The notes under the pieces were generated by a model. That model was not told the DNA's origin. It ran no database searches and worked only from the letters and a program-made list of their open reading frames with translations. Shown in pieces: positions 5,917 through 14,475 of a stretch of 22,211 bases of DNA (positions are counted from its first letter, which is position 1; every line of letters starts with the position of its first letter). The position numbers were made by a program, and so were the translations under genes. Origin of the DNA: a virus; the IMG/VR virus record IMGVR_UViG_3300022934_000221, positions 1 to 22,211 of that record, one strand, 5' to 3'.

Positions 5917-7567
5917 AGACTTTAGGAACTTTACATACCTAGTATGGCAGCATCTTGGACTACCAGAGCCTACACCAGTACAGTACGACATTGCGAACTA
6001 TCTGCAACACAGTCCCAAGCGTTGTATTATCGAAGCCTTTCGTGGTGTAGGTAAGTCTTATATTACTGCTGCCTACGTAGTTCACCAGCTACTGCTAGAC
6101 CCACAGCTAAAGTTTATGGTTGTGTCAGCGTCTAAGGCACGTGCTGATGACTTCTCTACGTTTACACAGCGTATTATTATGGAACTGCCCATATGCCAGC
6201 ATCTAGTGGCTAAAGAAGGGCAAAGATGGTCTAAGATAGCGTTTGATGTCGCACCAGCTAAAGCATCTGGTAGCCCTTCTGTAAAGAGTGTGGGTGTTAC
6301 TGGACAGCTTACAGGTAGTCGTGCTGACATCATCATTGCTGATGACGTAGAAGTACCCAATAACTCTATGACACACATGATGCGTGAGAAGTTGTCAGAG
6401 ACTGTTAAGGAATTTGACGCTGTTCTCAAGCCTGAGGGTAAGATTATCTATCTAGGTACGCCTCAAAACGAGATGAGCTTGTATAACGTGCTGTTGGGGC
6501 GTGGATACGACATGAGGGTATGGCCTGCACGGTATCCTACCCTAGAACGAGCAGAGAAGGCCTATGGGGGCAGGTTAGCACCTTTCCTGTATGAAACCCT
6601 ACAAGAAAAGCTAGAGGCCGTGTACGGGCTTCCTACGGACGATAAACGATTTGACGACACAGACTTACTAGAAAGAGAACTAAGTTATGGTAGAAGCGGT
6701 TTTGCTCTGCAATTTATGCTGGATACTAGCCTCAGTGATGCAAATAAATATCCGCTTAAACTAAGTGACTTGATTGTATACTCATGTGATAAAGATTCTG
6801 CACCTGAAAAGATGGTGTATGGTATCATGAAGCCCATGTCAGACATTCCTAACGTGGGTTTAAGTGGCGATAAGTTCTATGCGCCAGAAGATACAGTAGG
6901 CAGGGCTGCATACACAGGCTCAGTGATGGCTATTGACCCATCAGGTAGAGGTAGTGACGAGACTGCTTACTCGATTGTGAAGATGTTGAATGGTTTCTTG
7001 TATGTTGTAGACTGTGGTGGTGTTGAGGGTGGTTACTCTGATACAACGCTACAGCATCTGACAGACTTGGCTAAGATACATCAAGTAAACACTGTGCTGA
7101 TTGAGAGTAACTTTGGTGACGGGATGTTCACTGAGCTACTCAAGCCTTACATGTTGAAGACTTATCCAGTAACTCTGGAAGAGGTAAGGCACAATACACA
7201 GAAGGAACAGCGTATTATTGACACGTTAGAGCCTGTTATGAACCAGCATAGGTTAGTTATAGACCCTAAGGTAGTACAAAAGGACTATGACAGTGTACAG
7301 AACATGCCCCCTGAAAAGGGTATTAAGTACATGCTTACCTATCAGATGACTAGGATTACTAAACAACGTGGAGCATTAGCACATGACGATAGACTTGACG
7401 TTCTTGCTATGGCAGTGCAGTACTGGACAGAGCAGATGGCTGCTGATGCAGATACAGAAATACGAACAAGAAAAGAAGAACTACTTGATAATGAACTAGA
7501 AAAGTTCATGGGACACCTTAACATGGGACACAAAGATAGTCGTCAGGATGGGTGGATTCAAATCTAA
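5882..7567 (+). CDS. terL: Terminase large subunit (T7 gp19-like DNA maturase B)
   Basis: 561 aa, close to T7 gp19 (586 aa). It pumps DNA into proheads and cuts concatemers. ATPase domain: Walker A-like FRGVGKS (53-59), Walker B IIIADD (150-155), coupling motif YLGTP (190-194). Nuclease domain: VMAIDPSGRGSDE (348-360) with metal-binding D352, VLIESN (405-410) with E408, and HDDRLDVLAMAV near 503 with the last acidic residues. The start codon has only a weak GAGAGGT twelve bases upstream and lies in a possible hairpin. It is the last late gene, followed by a repeat and a strong terminator. Confidence 0.96.
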   Translation: MKQQQAFPEALRDFRNFTYLVWQHLGLPEPTPVQYDIANYLQHSPKRCIIEAFRGVGKSYITAAYVVHQLLLDPQLKFMVVSASKARADDFSTFTQRIIMELPICQHLVAKEGQRWSKIAFDVAPAKASGSPSVKSVGVTGQLTGSRADIIIADDVEVPNNSMTHMMREKLSETVKEFDAVLKPEGKIIYLGTPQNEMSLYNVLLGRGYDMRVWPARYPTLERAEKAYGGRLAPFLYETLQEKLEAVYGLPTDDKRFDDTDLLERELSYGRSGFALQFMLDTSLSDANKYPLKLSDLIVYSCDKDSAPEKMVYGIMKPMSDIPNVGLSGDKFYAPEDTVGRAAYTGSVMAIDPSGRGSDETAYSIVKMLNGFLYVVDCGGVEGGYSDTTLQHLTDLAKIHQVNTVLIESNFGDGMFTELLKPYMLKTYPVTLEEVRHNTQKEQRIIDTLEPVMNQHRLVIDPKVVQKDYDSVQNMPPEKGIKYMLTYQMTRITKQRGALAHDDRLDVLAMAVQYWTEQMAADADTEIRTRKEELLDNELEKFMGHLNMGHKDSRQDGWIQI

Positions 7568-7601
7568 AGTTACAACCTAGACAAGACCCCCTTTAACTAT
7601 A
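7564..7601 (+). repeat. 38-base element, inverted copy of the RNA polymerase leader
   Basis: These 38 bases begin with CTAAAGTTACAACCTAG at the terminase stop codon and run through AAGACCCCCTTTAACTATA. Their reverse complement recurs at 11990-12027 with 36 of 38 bases identical (mismatches at the 15th and 19th positions). The first 17 bases also recur in direct orientation at 14459-14475. The 3' part doubles as the left arm and loop of the terminator at 7583-7623. Confidence 0.9.
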
Positions 7602-7623
7602 GCTTTAAGTAGGGGGTCTTTTT
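7583..7623 (+). terminator. Strong intrinsic terminator after the large terminase
   Basis: AAGACCCCCT (7583-7592) and AGGGGGTCTT (7611-7620) form a perfect 10-bp stem, with a further possible TTTAA/TTAAG pairing in the 18-base loop region, followed by TTTTT (7619-7623). It sits 15 bases after the terminase stop and closes the late operon, comparable in position to the end-of-genome region of T7. Confidence 0.88.
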
Positions 7624-7657
7624 ACTTATGCTTCGGCTCAAAGATTAAGGCAAGATT

Positions 7658-7846
7658 ATGGAAGTTATCTGGACTTTACTGCTTACTGTGTGTTCTGATG
7701 TCAGTTGTTTGACACAGGATGTACAATGGTTTGACACACAAGCAGCCTGTACTGAGATGAAGATAGTGCATGAAGAGTACCCACCTGATGGTCACTGGAA
7801 GTCAATAGACTTTGTATGTACAATCAAAGGTGCTACACAGACTTGA
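7658..7846 (+). CDS. Small Cys-containing protein with hydrophobic N-terminus
   Basis: 62 aa. MEVIWTLLLTVC is a short hydrophobic start that could be an export signal or anchor; four Cys (residues 12, 17, 31 and 54) and an aromatic-rich body follow. The pattern W-x-L...C...C...W-x-x-x-x-C...F-x-C resembles small exported proteins found in phages and bacteria, of unknown function. AAGGCAAG lies just before the ATG. It stands alone after the late terminator and before the gene-free interval. The gene at 10737 has a loosely similar layout. Confidence 0.55.
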   Translation: MEVIWTLLLTVCSDVSCLTQDVQWFDTQAACTEMKIVHEEYPPDGHWKSIDFVCTIKGATQT

Positions 7847-7857
7847 CTGTCAGAAAA

Positions 7858-7887
7858 ATGACAGAAAAATCTGAGGGGGTATATAAT
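7858..7887 (+). promoter_or_regulatory. Candidate sigma70-type early promoter
   Basis: ATGACA (7858-7863, five of six to TTGACA), an 18-base spacer and a perfect TATAAT (7882-7887). It lies just after the stop of the gene at 7658, directs transcription rightward toward the early genes, and its -10 region overlaps the left arm of the GGGGGTAT/ATACCCCC inverted repeat. Host RNA polymerase promoters are expected at this place in T7-like genomes. Confidence 0.45.
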
Positions 7888-7910
7888 ATTAGTAGATGCG
7901 CGATACCCCC
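7875..7910 (+). repeat. Inverted repeat GGGGGTAT / ATACCCCC
   Basis: GGGGGTAT (7875-7882) and ATACCCCC (7903-7910) are perfect 8-base complements separated by 20 bases, spanning the -10 box and expected start of the candidate promoter at 7858. It may be an operator or a start-proximal RNA hairpin; no U-run follows, so it is not a standard terminator. Confidence 0.6.
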
Positions 7911-7932
7911 ACATACCTTATAATTATAACAC

Positions 7933-8035
7933 GTCAAACAATGCTTGTCAATGTCAAACATTTGACAACAGTGTCATTAATTTGACGCAAAACATGTTCA
8001 ACATTGTTTGACATGTGTCAGAATTTTGACATGTC
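7933..8035 (+). repeat. Cluster of TGTCA/TGACA palindromes
   Basis: Contains GTCAAACAATG (7933-7943) inverted as CATTGTTTGAC (8002-8012), the palindrome TGTCAAACATTTGACA (7952-7967), TGACATGTGTCA (8009-8020) and GACATGTC (8028-8035). TGTCA or TGACA occurs ten times between 7848 and 8079. Such reiterated half-sites suggest a DNA-binding protein site array (replication initiator, terminase recognition or regulator). The pentamer is also fairly common elsewhere in this genome, so the palindromic pairing matters more than the count. Confidence 0.6.
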
Positions 8036-8051
8036 TCTGTCTCTCTCTATC

Positions 8052-8104
8052 TGTTCTTGTTATGTTCTCAAACATGTCAAACAAACTAGAACATAACCAG
8101 AACA
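8052..8104 (+). repeat. 17-bp inverted repeat (16/17) in AT-rich region
   Basis: TGTTCTTGTTATGTTCT (8052-8068) and AGAACATAACCAGAACA (8088-8104) are complementary at 16 of 17 positions around a 19-base centre that includes ACATGTCAAAC. It is followed at once by TATATATAATTATAA (with a TATAAT at 8113-8118) and A/T tracts. It could be a cruciform, an operator next to a promoter, or part of an origin or terminal-repeat end. Confidence 0.7.
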
Positions 8105-8338
8105 TTCCTATATATAATTATAAGGTGTAAAAATTTTTTTAAAAATTGTGCATTTTTTTGTTGTGTTTATTTTCTGCCTATGCCATTATCAAATCATCGA
8201 AAGGGCAACGGTGTTAGCGCACATTCGATACGGTCAAAAGAGAGAGCATAAGCGATACGTTCAACCTTGCTAGACCATAGACTAAAGGCCAGCCTATAGG
8301 TCAATAGAATTAGGCTACACGATAGACTAGGATTGTTT

Positions 8339-8384
8339 TGGTAGTTTTCTACTAGTCTGTATGAGATATAACTGAAAACTACCA
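8339..8384 (+). repeat. 11-bp hairpin-forming inverted repeat
   Basis: TGGTAGTTTTC (8339-8349) and GAAAACTACCA (8374-8384) are perfect complements with a 24-base loop. No T-run follows on the + strand, so it is not a typical terminator. It lies 15 bases before the candidate promoter at 8400. Confidence 0.6.
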
Positions 8385-8399
8385 CTGAATAAAAAAGAC

Positions 8400-8429
8400 T
8401 TGACTATCGAATACGAATAAGAATAGACT
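8400..8429 (+). promoter_or_regulatory. Possible sigma70-type promoter
   Basis: TTGACT (8400-8405, five of six), an 18-base spacer and TAGACT (8424-8429, four of six to TATAAT). It would transcribe rightward into the structured stretch before the first early gene at 8680. Weaker match than the candidate at 7858. Confidence 0.3.
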
Positions 8430-8593
8430 AAAACAACATTGAGGCGGAGATAGCGTTAAAAGTTTACAAAGTTTAAGCGTACCAACGCAAGCCAAGTAAA
8501 CTAGCTACCAAAGAGAAGCCTATAAATCCCATGTCAGTGAAAGGGCTGGCTATAGAGCTATGATTGAGTTACATAGTCAAAGGTCTGGTGCCA

Positions 8594-8635
8594 AGCTAGG
8601 CGTGGGCGGGATAGCAACCGTAAAAACGCCTAGCT
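8594..8635 (+). repeat. 10-bp hairpin upstream of the first early gene
   Basis: AGCTAGGCGT (8594-8603) and ACGCCTAGCT (8626-8635) are perfect complements around a 22-base loop. It is GC-richer than the surroundings and lies 45 bases before the ATG at 8680, so it would be in the 5' leader of the early mRNA. Possibly an RNA-processing site (T7 early RNA is cut by RNase III at hairpins) or a structured leader. Confidence 0.6.
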
Positions 8636-8679
8636 ATTACAAGGTGCAATGGTGCGCCTATGTAGCAAGGGAGTAAGCT

Positions 8680-8880
8680 ATGAAAACCAAGACTATCAAA
8701 CTATTCGGCAAGACTGTAGCAGTAGTAGGTAAGCGTCCACGGGTTAGCAAGTACCGTTTTGGTGTGAGCAGTGGTAGCACGTTTATGGGATTGCATACAG
8801 GCAAGGTTAGTCGGTACTTACATGTACCAATGTTTGCTAACCGTACGTTTGGCGGGGTTGCAGATATCAAACACACTTGA
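8680..8880 (+). CDS. Small basic early protein, unknown
   Basis: 66 aa, basic (MKTKTIKLFGKTVAVVGKRP then RVSKYRFGV), with no membrane segment or Cys. AAGGGAG lies eight bases before the ATG, a strong ribosome binding site. It is the first gene after the gene-free junction and so probably among the first expressed, where T7-like phages keep host-takeover genes. No family recognised. Confidence 0.65.
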   Translation: MKTKTIKLFGKTVAVVGKRPRVSKYRFGVSSGSTFMGLHTGKVSRYLHVPMFANRTFGGVADIKHT

Positions 8881-8890
8881 CACATAGGGG

Positions 8891-8913
8891 ACAACAGTGC
8901 TAGTTACTGTTGT
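8891..8913 (+). repeat. 8-bp hairpin between first and second early genes
   Basis: ACAACAGT (8891-8898) and ACTGTTGT (8906-8913) form a perfect stem with loop GCTAGTT. No T-run follows, so it may be an RNA-processing or stability hairpin rather than a terminator. Confidence 0.6.
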
Positions 8914-8939
8914 ACCTTGTAATAGCTAGGGAGTAGACA

Positions 8940-9524
8940 ATGACTGTAGCAAACATACTGGCAATTTATAAGCTTGCCAATGCAGACGAAGTTAAGCATG
9001 GTATGACATGGTATCATGTGGCTAAGTGTGAATGTCAAAAGATGGCAGACAGGCACGACATACCATTGCATATTGCAGTGGGTGTAGTGGCGGCACTATC
9101 ACCTAACAACAAGTGGGACAGAAACATAACCAATGCTGATGACTTGATAGGTGCGTTTATGCGTGGTGACCATATCGAATCGGTAAAGGTGAGTACATAC
9201 CACACAATGAGAGCCAAGGCGTGGGGCATACTAGAGGCCATGCCAGACTATAGTGAGACCAAGACTATACTCAATGGGCAAAAGATAGTATGCTTTTATG
9301 AAAATATCATGGGCGAGGATACTTGCACCATTGATGGGCATGCCAGAAACATTGCGTATGGTGAGCGAGTAGGCTTGACAGATGACAAGACTAACATTGG
9401 CAAGAAAGAGTATGCCATGTTGCAAGATTTATATAGACATGCGGCAAAGCAATGTGGTATCAAAGCATATGAGATGCAAGCTATCACATGGGTGGCATGG
9501 CGTAGGATTCACAACATAGGGTAA
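8940..9524 (+). CDS. HhH-GPD-like protein of unknown function (phage early gene)
   Basis: 194 aa, mostly helical. Conserved-looking blocks: GMTWYHVAK (21-29), VVAALSPNNKWDRNI (49-63), ILNGQKIVCFYENIMGED (110-127) and TIDGHARNIAYG (130-141). The arrangement of an LxGxKxxxFYxNI turn followed by a T-I-D-x-H-A strand/helix echoes the helix-hairpin-helix plus catalytic Asp (VDTHV) of base-excision DNA glycosylases such as endonuclease III, without the iron-sulphur Cys. This ALSPxxxWxxN protein type recurs in many phages as uncharacterised. It could act on host or modified DNA; that is inference. GGGAG lies seven bases before the ATG. Confidence 0.75.
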   Translation: MTVANILAIYKLANADEVKHGMTWYHVAKCECQKMADRHDIPLHIAVGVVAALSPNNKWDRNITNADDLIGAFMRGDHIESVKVSTYHTMRAKAWGILEAMPDYSETKTILNGQKIVCFYENIMGEDTCTIDGHARNIAYGERVGLTDDKTNIGKKEYAMLQDLYRHAAKQCGIKAYEMQAITWVAWRRIHNIG

Positions 9525-11831: not shown

Positions 11832-11986
11832 TGGATGCACTACTTCTAGTATGGATAACATGTATGCTTGCCATTGCAGTGGTTGGTATGTTAGGTGACT
11901 ACGAAGCAGTAACAGGTGTACAGTTTGTAGTGATGTTGGCTGGTGTACTGGTCATTGGTATGGCAGGTATGATAGCCGTAGTTTAA
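11831..11986 (+). CDS. Small two-helix membrane protein
   Basis: 51 aa from ATG 11831: two hydrophobic helices (about 3-20, LLLVWITCMLAIAVVGM, and 29-50, FVVMLAGVLVIGMAGMIAVV) separated by GDYEAVTG. The overlap with the upstream stop (TGATG) and the tight hydrophobic start favour this codon over the one at 11801. Last gene of the early small-gene block, just before the RNA polymerase leader. Function unknown. Confidence 0.55.
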   Translation: MDALLLVWITCMLAIAVVGMLGDYEAVTGVQFVVMLAGVLVIGMAGMIAVV

Positions 11987-11989
11987 GTA

Positions 11990-12027
11990 TATAGTTAAAG
12001 GGGGTCTTATCTTGGTTGTAACTTTAG
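11990..12027 (+). repeat. RNA polymerase leader: inverted copy of the terminase 3' element
   Basis: The reverse complement of these 38 bases matches 7564-7601 at 36 positions. It contains AAAGGGGGT (11997-12005), the ribosome binding site, and the TTG start codon (12012) of the RNA polymerase N-terminal frame, so the translation start itself is complementary to the end of the terminase transcript. The 17 bases 12011-12027 are also complementary (16/17) to 14459-14475 after the polymerase. Confidence 0.9.
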
Positions 12028-12809
12028 AAACAAACAAAGACCTATTTGAACACCAGCTTGAGTTAGAAGCAGACATGCTGACAGGTGGCATACAACGCTT
12101 CAGGAAAGCCAGAGACAGGGCTATCGAATCAGGCAGGGAGACACACATGCCACACGGTAGAGCCATTGTAGCACGTATCGTGGGCGATGTAGCACAGGGT
12201 GTACGAGAGTACCTAGCTAACCCAAGCAACCCATCACGTGACATAGCGTGGAAGCGTATCAACGAGATGGATGCAGAGCAGGTAGCATACTTGAGTGTGG
12301 TGTCCATGGTTGACAGCATCAGCAGGAAGAACACACTACTGTATGTAGCTCGTACCATTGGTACTAACATTGAGATGCAAGACAGGCTAGACAGGTGGAT
12401 ACATGCCGAAGGTAACGTAGCTCGTAACACAATCAAAGAAGCTATGAAGAAAGCCTATGGTGCTAGACGCTATGGCCTGACACACAAGATGAACAAGGAC
12501 GGTTACGAAGAATCAGCATGGCTCAAGTCAGAGCGTGTGCATGTGGGCTTCAAGATGGTTGACCTAATCATACAGTGTACAGGTATCATCAAGCTAGACA
12601 CACAACAGACTGAGCGTAAACGCAGAGCCACCTACGTTGTACCTACTGAGGGTACACTGGAATTTATACAGGCTTTCAATGAGTACATAGAGGTATCAAG
12701 ACCACGCTACCTACCATGTGTGGTGACACCCAAGCAGTGGACAGATGTACAGGGTGGTGGGTATCATGGTCACGACATAGATGAACTACCAATAGTGAGG
12801 CGCAAATGA
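12012..12809 (+). CDS. T7-like RNA polymerase, N-terminal part (separate frame)
   Basis: 265 aa with a TTG start, seven bases after AGGGGGT; homology begins only about a dozen residues in, so no later start fits. It aligns along the T7 RNA polymerase N-terminal domain: RFRKARDRAIESG matches T7 ARFRKMFERQLKAG; SAWLKSERVHVGFKMVDLII, STG-like CTGIIKL and CVVTPKQWTDVQGGGYHG match T7 WHKEDSIHVGVRCIEMLI, STGMVSL and CVVPPKPWTGITGGGYW. This domain binds promoter and nascent RNA. The frame stops after LPIVRRK, about T7 residue 300, and the rest continues in the overlapping frame at 12806. Likely both products assemble into one enzyme; a missing base in the sequence is the main alternative. Confidence 0.9.
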   Translation: MVVTLETNKDLFEHQLELEADMLTGGIQRFRKARDRAIESGRETHMPHGRAIVARIVGDVAQGVREYLANPSNPSRDIAWKRINEMDAEQVAYLSVVSMVDSISRKNTLLYVARTIGTNIEMQDRLDRWIHAEGNVARNTIKEAMKKAYGARRYGLTHKMNKDGYEESAWLKSERVHVGFKMVDLIIQCTGIIKLDTQQTERKRRATYVVPTEGTLEFIQAFNEYIEVSRPRYLPCVVTPKQWTDVQGGGYHGHDIDELPIVRRK

Positions 12810-14455
12810 GTTTGAAGACACACCTACGCAGACTAAGAGAGCAGGACTTGTCGCAGGAGTATGCTTGTCTTAACTCTTTGCAACAAACTGAGTGGCGTAT
12901 TAATCAATCGTTGTTGCAGGTTATACGTACCCTGTGGGACAACGGACAGGAATGGGGCAAGCTGCCAGCAAGGGATGATGTACCACTACCAGAGTACCCC
13001 TTCGACAGAGACCCCAAAGAGTTGACTGAGAGTGAGAGGGAATTGTTCCGTGCATGGTCACGACAGAGGAACCACATCTACTCCCTTAACAACCGAAGTG
13101 TGAGCAAGCGCATACAAGTAGAGAGAACCTTGCAGATTGCAGAACAGTTTGCACAGTACGACAGGTTCTACTATGTGTGGCAGAATGATTTCAGGTCACG
13201 CAAGTATGCAAGTAGCACCTTCCTCTCACCTCAGTCTGCTGATTGGAGTAAGGCACTGCTTGAGTTTGGCTATCCAATGCCCATCAAGAATTGGGATGAT
13301 GCACGTTGGTTGTGTATTCATGGGGCTAATCTCTATGGCAATGACAAGGTAACTCTAGACCAGCGTGAGACATGGGCTTGGGAATACGCAGAGATGTGGG
13401 CGCATCGTGTTGTGTCCAACCCATACGAGTGTGGTGTGTGGCGTGAAGCTGACAAGCCATTCCAGTTCCTAGCTTGGTGTTACGAGATGTCAGGCCTGAT
13501 GAAGCAGGGTTGGGGATACGAGACACGCCTACCTGTATCAGCAGATGGTAGTTGTAATGGATTGCAACACCTCTCTGCCATACTCAGGGACAGTCATGGT
13601 GGTGTAGCTACCAACCTTGTGCCATCAGACCTACCTCAAGACATCTACACACAGGTGGCAGACAAGACTATCGCACGTGTACAACAGGATGAAACAGAAC
13701 TAGCACGTAAATGCTTGGCCTTTGGTATAGACAGGAAGCTTGCCAAGCGTCCAGTAATGATAGTACCGTACTCAGGTACACGTCACGCCTGTCGTGCCTA
13801 CATAGAGGAAGCTATGCGAGAGAAGATAGACAGTGGTGGGGACAACCCATTCGGTGATGACTTGTTTGATGCGTCATCGTATCTGTCTAGACATGTGTGG
13901 GATTCAATCAGTGAGGTGATTGTATCTGCTCGTAAGGTGATGGACTACATCAAGGATGTGGCTGATGTGTATGCCAGCATGGGTAAGCACATGGAGTGGG
14001 TCACACCAACAGGATGGATTGTGTTACAACAGTATAGTGAGGTGCAACAAAAGAGAATCAAGACACACATCAATGGGGAGATAGTATCCTTATCCTTTCC
14101 CAGAGATAAACCAAACTCTGTGAACAGGCAGAGGACAGGGCTAGGCAGTAGCCCTAACTTTATCCACAGTCTGGATGCAGCAGCTATGACTAAGACAATC
14201 AACAAGGCTAACAAGCTAGGCATACAGGACTTTGCTATGGTGCATGACAGCTATGGTACACACAGTCCGATGATGCCCCTCTTGTCTGAGGTATTACGCG
14301 AAGAGTTTGTTGAGATGTATGAGCAACATGATGTCTTGACTGAGTTGAGACAACATGCTATAAGGGTACTTGGTACTGAAGATATACCAATGCCACCAGC
14401 TAGGGGTGAATTAAATTTGCGTGACATATTAGAATCACAATATTTCTTTGCGTGA
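12806..14455 (+). CDS. T7-like RNA polymerase, catalytic part (separate frame)
   Basis: 549 aa, continuing from the frame at 12012. All catalytic elements are present: SADGSCNGLQH with D247 (T7 D537), FGIDRKLAKRPVMIVPY with R310, K314 and Y322 (T7 R627, K631, Y639), SPNFIHS with the conserved His, MVHDSYG with H480 and D481 (T7 H811, D812), and the C-terminal NLRDILES...FFA like T7 FAFA. The specificity-loop region (about 400-440) is diverged, so promoters should differ from T7. The ATG overlaps the N-terminal frame as AAATGA, preceded by GTGAGG, fitting stop-restart coupling. Transcribes phage middle and late genes. Confidence 0.95.
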   Translation: MSLKTHLRRLREQDLSQEYACLNSLQQTEWRINQSLLQVIRTLWDNGQEWGKLPARDDVPLPEYPFDRDPKELTESERELFRAWSRQRNHIYSLNNRSVSKRIQVERTLQIAEQFAQYDRFYYVWQNDFRSRKYASSTFLSPQSADWSKALLEFGYPMPIKNWDDARWLCIHGANLYGNDKVTLDQRETWAWEYAEMWAHRVVSNPYECGVWREADKPFQFLAWCYEMSGLMKQGWGYETRLPVSADGSCNGLQHLSAILRDSHGGVATNLVPSDLPQDIYTQVADKTIARVQQDETELARKCLAFGIDRKLAKRPVMIVPYSGTRHACRAYIEEAMREKIDSGGDNPFGDDLFDASSYLSRHVWDSISEVIVSARKVMDYIKDVADVYASMGKHMEWVTPTGWIVLQQYSEVQQKRIKTHINGEIVSLSFPRDKPNSVNRQRTGLGSSPNFIHSLDAAAMTKTINKANKLGIQDFAMVHDSYGTHSPMMPLLSEVLREEFVEMYEQHDVLTELRQHAIRVLGTEDIPMPPARGELNLRDILESQYFFA

Positions 14456-14458
14456 TTT

Positions 14459-14475
14459 CTAAAGTTACAACCTAG
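14459..14475 (+). repeat. Third copy of the CTAAAGTTACAACCTAG element
   Basis: CTAAAGTTACAACCTAG, identical to 7564-7580 and inverted (16/17) relative to 12011-12027. It lies three bases after the RNA polymerase stop and 34 bases before the SSB ATG. Both direct copies follow a stop codon closely, in the 3' untranslated region of a phage gene. Confidence 0.9.

Follow-up and report, generated by a model that had tools for sequence, protein, structure and literature searches.

We found that the two arms of a 17-bp inverted repeat in the control region of an uncultured T7-like phage are, judged by their sequence, complete LexA (SOS) boxes of the alphaproteobacterial type; a hairpin or an origin is not the best reading of the repeat. 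The window (the whole stretch of DNA that was analyzed, 22,211 nt) is a 22.2-kb virus record with a T7-like gene order. We propose that the arms are probably two operators for the LexA protein of the host, which would repress the first promoter of the phage until DNA damage occurs; the LexA binding, the promoter, and the host in this proposal are predictions.

The first-pass annotation had described a 17-bp inverted repeat with one mispaired position and a 19-base centre holding TGTCAAA, followed by TATAAT and by A and T runs. Each of these features was confirmed (Table 1). The arms TGTTCTTGTTATGTTCT (8052-8068) and AGAACATAACCAGAACA (8088-8104) pair at 16 of 17 positions, and TGTCAAA lies within the centre at 8075-8081. 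A search of the window for inverted repeats in which 16 or 17 of the 17 positions pair around a centre of 3 to 40 bases gave 8052-8104 as the single site. No inverted repeat of such quality came up when the full window was shuffled 100 times by dinucleotides or the local 400 bases 1,000 times. TTTGACA is enriched in the window (14 copies versus 4.5 expected), and five of the copies cluster at 7952-8081, four in the inferred terminal repeat and the fifth between the two arms.

Table 1. Features in and around the box pair (positions in the window).
Feature	Position	Strand	Basis or remark
Terminase large subunit	5882-7567		Gene order: then the intergenic control region, small early ORFs, the RNA polymerase genes, and further ORFs
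Terminal repeat, 167 bp	7882-8048	+	Limits inferred by homology with T7 (160 bp) and HTVC019P (162 bp)
Left LexA-type box, GTTC TTGTTAT GTTC	8053-8067	+	Core of left arm; only plus-strand GTTCN7GTTC in the window
Centre of inverted repeat	8069-8087	.	Sequence and length differ between relatives
Right LexA-type box, GTTC TGGTTAT GTTC	8089-8103	-	Core of right arm; only minus-strand GTTCN7GTTC in the window
TATAAT, candidate -10 of a rightward host promoter, the first one past the terminal repeat	8113-8118	+	Sequence
A and T runs after the -10-like sequence	8125-8165	+	Sequence; local GC 0.35
First early ORF candidate	8680-8880		After the A/T tract and the conserved leader RNA

Each arm is a GTTC-N7-GTTC direct repeat, and the two arms are the only such sites on both strands of the whole window. 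GTTCN7GTTC is the SOS box of Caulobacter (PMC9578287), and the phage arms share exactly the motif and spacing of this alphaproteobacterial LexA/SOS box as found in Caulobacter crescentus. At 15 of 15 positions, the left box equals a LexA box that has been reported in Caulobacter, that of ccna_01391 and ccna_02355 (PMC12700426). About 97% of Caulobacter SOS promoters have one box (PMC12700426), whereas here there are two inverted boxes, and they are on a phage. By chance, 0.61 GTTC-N7-GTTC sites are expected on average and two or more sites occurred in 15 of 100 shuffles, so that a single site is not rare; a pair within 60 bases was found in 1 of 300 shuffles. We also scored the window with a matrix derived from alphaproteobacterial lexA promoters. 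The right box scored 19.4 bits, the best in the window, and the left box 19.2 bits, versus 9.6 bits for the next unrelated site; the matrix contains the tetrads by construction, and the information that it adds comes from the flanks and spacer only. Among 32 alphaproteobacterial lexA upstream stretches (the best 30 of 107, plus two added from another set), 24 carry at least one GTTC-N7-GTTC box, versus 0.18 expected from shuffles. Relative to rightward transcription, the right box has the orientation of most lexA promoter boxes.

The phage has a single-subunit RNA polymerase (RPOL_N and RNA_pol profiles in two adjacent ORFs) and TerL relatives in Autographiviridae, and we classed it as T7-like (Autographiviridae type) on these grounds. 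Its TerL is nearest to that of roseophage CRP-125 (61%), with Pseudomonas phage LUZ100 equally close; the best isolate matches of its DNA polymerase are roseophages and pelagiphages, and its RNA polymerase is less than 40% identical to those of all isolates listed. We found no DNA matches to 7400-9000 among phage isolates. Of 142 Alphaproteobacteria genomes drawn, 107 have lexA. We infer that the host belongs to the Alphaproteobacteria. A genome-contig scan for prophage returned one 90% relative in a single-cell assembly labeled Poseidoniales, which we did not take as the host.

We found no match to the integrase (PF00589), S24 (PF00717), or HTH_3 (PF01381) profiles in 11 family records (eight of 39 to 42 kb, two of about 25 kb, and the window; four of the 11 are fragments), and the family was thus not classed as temperate. 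Likewise, no repressor was found among ten window proteins compared with PHROGs and ten compared with Pfam. Because none of these searches returned an integrase, S24, HTH_3, or own-repressor match, the natural reader of the boxes would be host LexA. It is unlikely that the arms are instead operators of another phage or host protein with the same half-site. Such a protein would fit with the early genes of the window, most of which match no family of known function, and LexA binding is itself a prediction; against it stand the exact alphaproteobacterial LexA form of the boxes, including the flanking T and the published 15-mer, and the lack of HTH_3 and S24 matches in the 11 family records. One early gene (8940-9524) belongs to DUF7178/phrog_3842, whose function is unknown.

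We placed the box pair on the phage genome by aligning the window with T7 and HTVC019P. The T7 repeat begins after AAAATCTGAGTGACTA and the HTVC019P repeat after AAAATTATGAGGGGGTA; the window equivalent, which gives the left cut, is AAAATCTGAGGGGGTA. At the right cut, the window has GTCTCTCTCT before the cut and ATCTGTT after it. Just before ATCTGTT, the 160-bp T7 repeat ends in GTGTCTCTCTGTGTCCCT and the window reads CTCTGTCTCTCTCT. The terminal repeat is present as one copy in the assembled records, and its limits are set by homology and not by its being seen as a repeat. The box pair begins 4 bases past the right end of the inferred terminal repeat, which would put it about 170 to 220 bases from the left end of the virion genome, with the left box starting at about base 172. 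The left ends of T7, LUZ100, and HTVC019P show the layout predicted here, a terminal repeat and then a host-promoter region and early genes, and the host promoters of LUZ100 lie right of its terminal repeat, as the box pair does here. Exact LexA-type boxes were absent from the end regions of T7, LUZ100, HTVC019P, ProddE, and CRP-125, and in eight isolates (these five, RHEph01, CRP-114, and Lo5R7ANS) no site close to an end scored more than 11 with the matrix. HTVC019P has a one-mismatch LexA-type site of 11.0 bits (L115, 207-221), about 45 bases right of its terminal repeat, which may be due to chance.

The first-pass annotation had suggested that the repeat might be an operator of an early promoter with its -35 element in the right arm. 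The operator is supported: the arms are alphaproteobacterial LexA boxes by sequence, the pair is kept in box-bearing relatives, and it lies at the left end before the early genes. The case for the -35 is weak. TATAAT lies 10 bases right of the right box and has no good -35 with it; the hexamer 17 bases before it is AACATA (8090-8095), which by our own count matches TTGACA at 2 of 6 positions, and a promoter scan did not list the site. In several relatives, the distance from the right box to a TATA-like box is 20 bases, versus 5 to 8 bases otherwise. A rightward sigma-70 match at 7858-7887 (11 of 12) was dropped as the main early promoter of an entering genome because the left cut splits its -35 (left) from its -10 (right); its AAAATCTGAG belongs to the cut region in the alignment with T7 and HTVC019P. 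A perfect leftward sigma-70 match (7923-7951, minus strand; TTGACA, 17, TATAAT, with TG before it; 12 of 12) lies within the inferred terminal repeat.

To follow the arms in relatives, we searched viral contigs for the right-cut motif alone, a scan that was not selected for boxes. This gave at least 107 loci with 93 distinct downstream sequences, of which 53 are in the family (two text rules, at least 95 bases), 3 are too short (L057, L233, and L275), and 37 are outside the family. Among the matches listed, the left box is at its fixed place in 10 of the 53 distinct family sequences, and all 10 have a second box. In the other 43, again among the matches listed, we found no box of any kind in 95 bases. 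Conservation of both arms had been named as a check on the repeat: carriers of the left box keep the pair, and most relatives among the matches listed lack it. A separate count, which used one text rule and includes loci chosen for the left box, gave 49 in-family sequences, of which 18 have two boxes, 1 (L022) has one distant box, and 30 have none.

In a scan selected on the left box, a second box was present in 26 of 26 stretches, inverted in 24 and direct in 2. The direct second boxes are those of L101 and L106, where they lie 57 bases on, beyond a TATAAT. The start-to-start distance of the boxes in 18 distinct sequences is 36 in 13, 34 in 2, and 33, 24, and 57 in one each. The tetrads are constant, and the spacers and centre vary. 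Since the second box can be direct and not inverted, it appears that protein sites are kept and not a palindrome.

The same comparison bears on two other readings of the repeat. A hairpin or palindrome used by terminase for maturation of the genome end would suit arms that stand 4 bases right of the inferred right cut. It is very improbable all the same, since among the matches listed the cut motif is conserved in the 43 of 53 relatives that have no arms, and since the direct second box of L101 and L106 can form no hairpin. We rejected a hairpin or packaging palindrome on both counts. The first-pass annotation had also raised a replication origin with an easily melted stretch, for which the A/T-rich stretch (GC 0.35) and the enriched, clustered TTTGACA could speak. 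We found no support for an origin and hold it to be the least probable of the readings: there is no GC-skew switch here, and the arms are missing from those same 43 of 53 relatives among the matches listed.

We also mapped the boxes on a TerL tree of 55 rows, which were left from 86 with TerL once duplicates were removed. With boxes in 17 rows, the tree requires 7 changes, and well-supported branches force 3 of them. On these sequences, near relatives gain and lose the box element or exchange it.

Several other features of the window were recorded. The T7-like RNA polymerase is split into an N part (12012-12809, RPOL_N) and a C part (12806-14455, RNA_pol) that overlap at ATGA, with the split point at T7 residues ~298 to 305. 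All 40 family rows (at least five contigs are counted twice) have the split, and the polymerase is in one frame in 7 of 7 distant relatives; our literature search found no natural split T7-like polymerase. A conserved and structured leader RNA (8196-8277) follows the box pair. Its first stem was found in 18 of 22 sequences, where it has 6 or more uninterrupted pairs and 12 distinct arm pairs; its second stem covaries, and it has the invariant core AAAGA.AG.GCA...AACC.TGCTAG. Rfam gave nothing above gathering scores at 7500-9000, and single leader sequences fold no better than shuffles. As a guess, the leader is perhaps an antitermination or processing signal. The 18-mer TCTAAAGTTACAACCTAG occurs in three copies with at most one mismatch, at 7563-7580 (plus strand), 12011-12028 (minus strand), and 14458-14475 (plus strand), versus 0.04 expected. 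The copies are located around the ends of the terminase and polymerase genes, two of them lie within a 46-base inverted repeat (7563-7608 and 11983-12028), and they are perhaps phage promoters or parts of terminators. A 21-base inverted repeat (8629-8649 and 8910-8930, 95% complementary) flanks the first early ORF candidate.

The phages known to be run by LexA, such as GIL01 and 186, are temperate. Host LexA runs the lytic switch of GIL01, 186, and others, as described in PMC9437464, and these phages have host LexA sites in a control region, as is proposed here. Phages of the GIL01/186 type have antirepressor, co-repressor, or lytic genes under LexA, whereas here the phage is T7-like and the boxes are at the genome end. 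PMC9437464 also describes "lytic deferment" in phages of Alphaproteobacteria, where a host regulator is likewise proposed to postpone phage expression without lysogeny; there it is CtrA and the cell cycle, and here it would be LexA and DNA damage. LUZ100 has an integrase and a MarR-type regulator (PMC10134795), unlike the family studied here, which has no integrase match in the 11 records searched. PMC12345140 describes binding of a phage protein to the promoters of recA and lexA. The use of LexA by phages is already known, but our literature searches listed no T7-like phage with LexA boxes in its early region, and none that uses LexA while lacking its own repressor.

We also considered that the boxes might titrate LexA. 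In that case, replicated genomes, each with two boxes, would soak up LexA and turn on the repair and nucleotide genes of the host. The boxes are perfect and belong to a genome that reaches high copy number, and SOS genes rise in one pelagiphage infection, by a phage outside this family (PMC12753301). Titration nevertheless seems improbable, as it would call neither for a constant position 4 bases beyond the terminal repeat nor for exactly two boxes there every time.

We favor repression of the first promoter by host LexA. In an undamaged alphaproteobacterial cell, host LexA would sit on both boxes and hold down the first early transcript, and the phage RNA polymerase encoded downstream would be held down as well. 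RecA-driven cleavage of LexA, brought on by DNA damage, UV, or another phage, would then open early transcription and, after it, expression of the phage polymerase. This suggests that an apparently virulent phage may let the host SOS response time the first reading of its genes. In T7, the first transcript made by host polymerase also pulls the genome into the cell. Because the box pair lies about 170 to 220 bases from the leading end, LexA would block this first host-polymerase transcript. It is conceivable, although we consider it doubtful, that host LexA gates infection itself, so that a phage without its own repressor would wait partly injected or silent in healthy cells until damage, or a coinfecting phage that raises the SOS response, licensed entry and lysis.

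T7-like phages are the textbook case of immediate lysis. If the LexA-gated early promoter is real, it would be a damage-sensing switch in an apparently virulent phage without lysogeny genes, and outbreak of the phage would be tied to sunlight damage and to other phages. Since near relatives gain and lose the box module, gated and ungated phages would exist side by side, and such close relatives would be natural comparison pairs.
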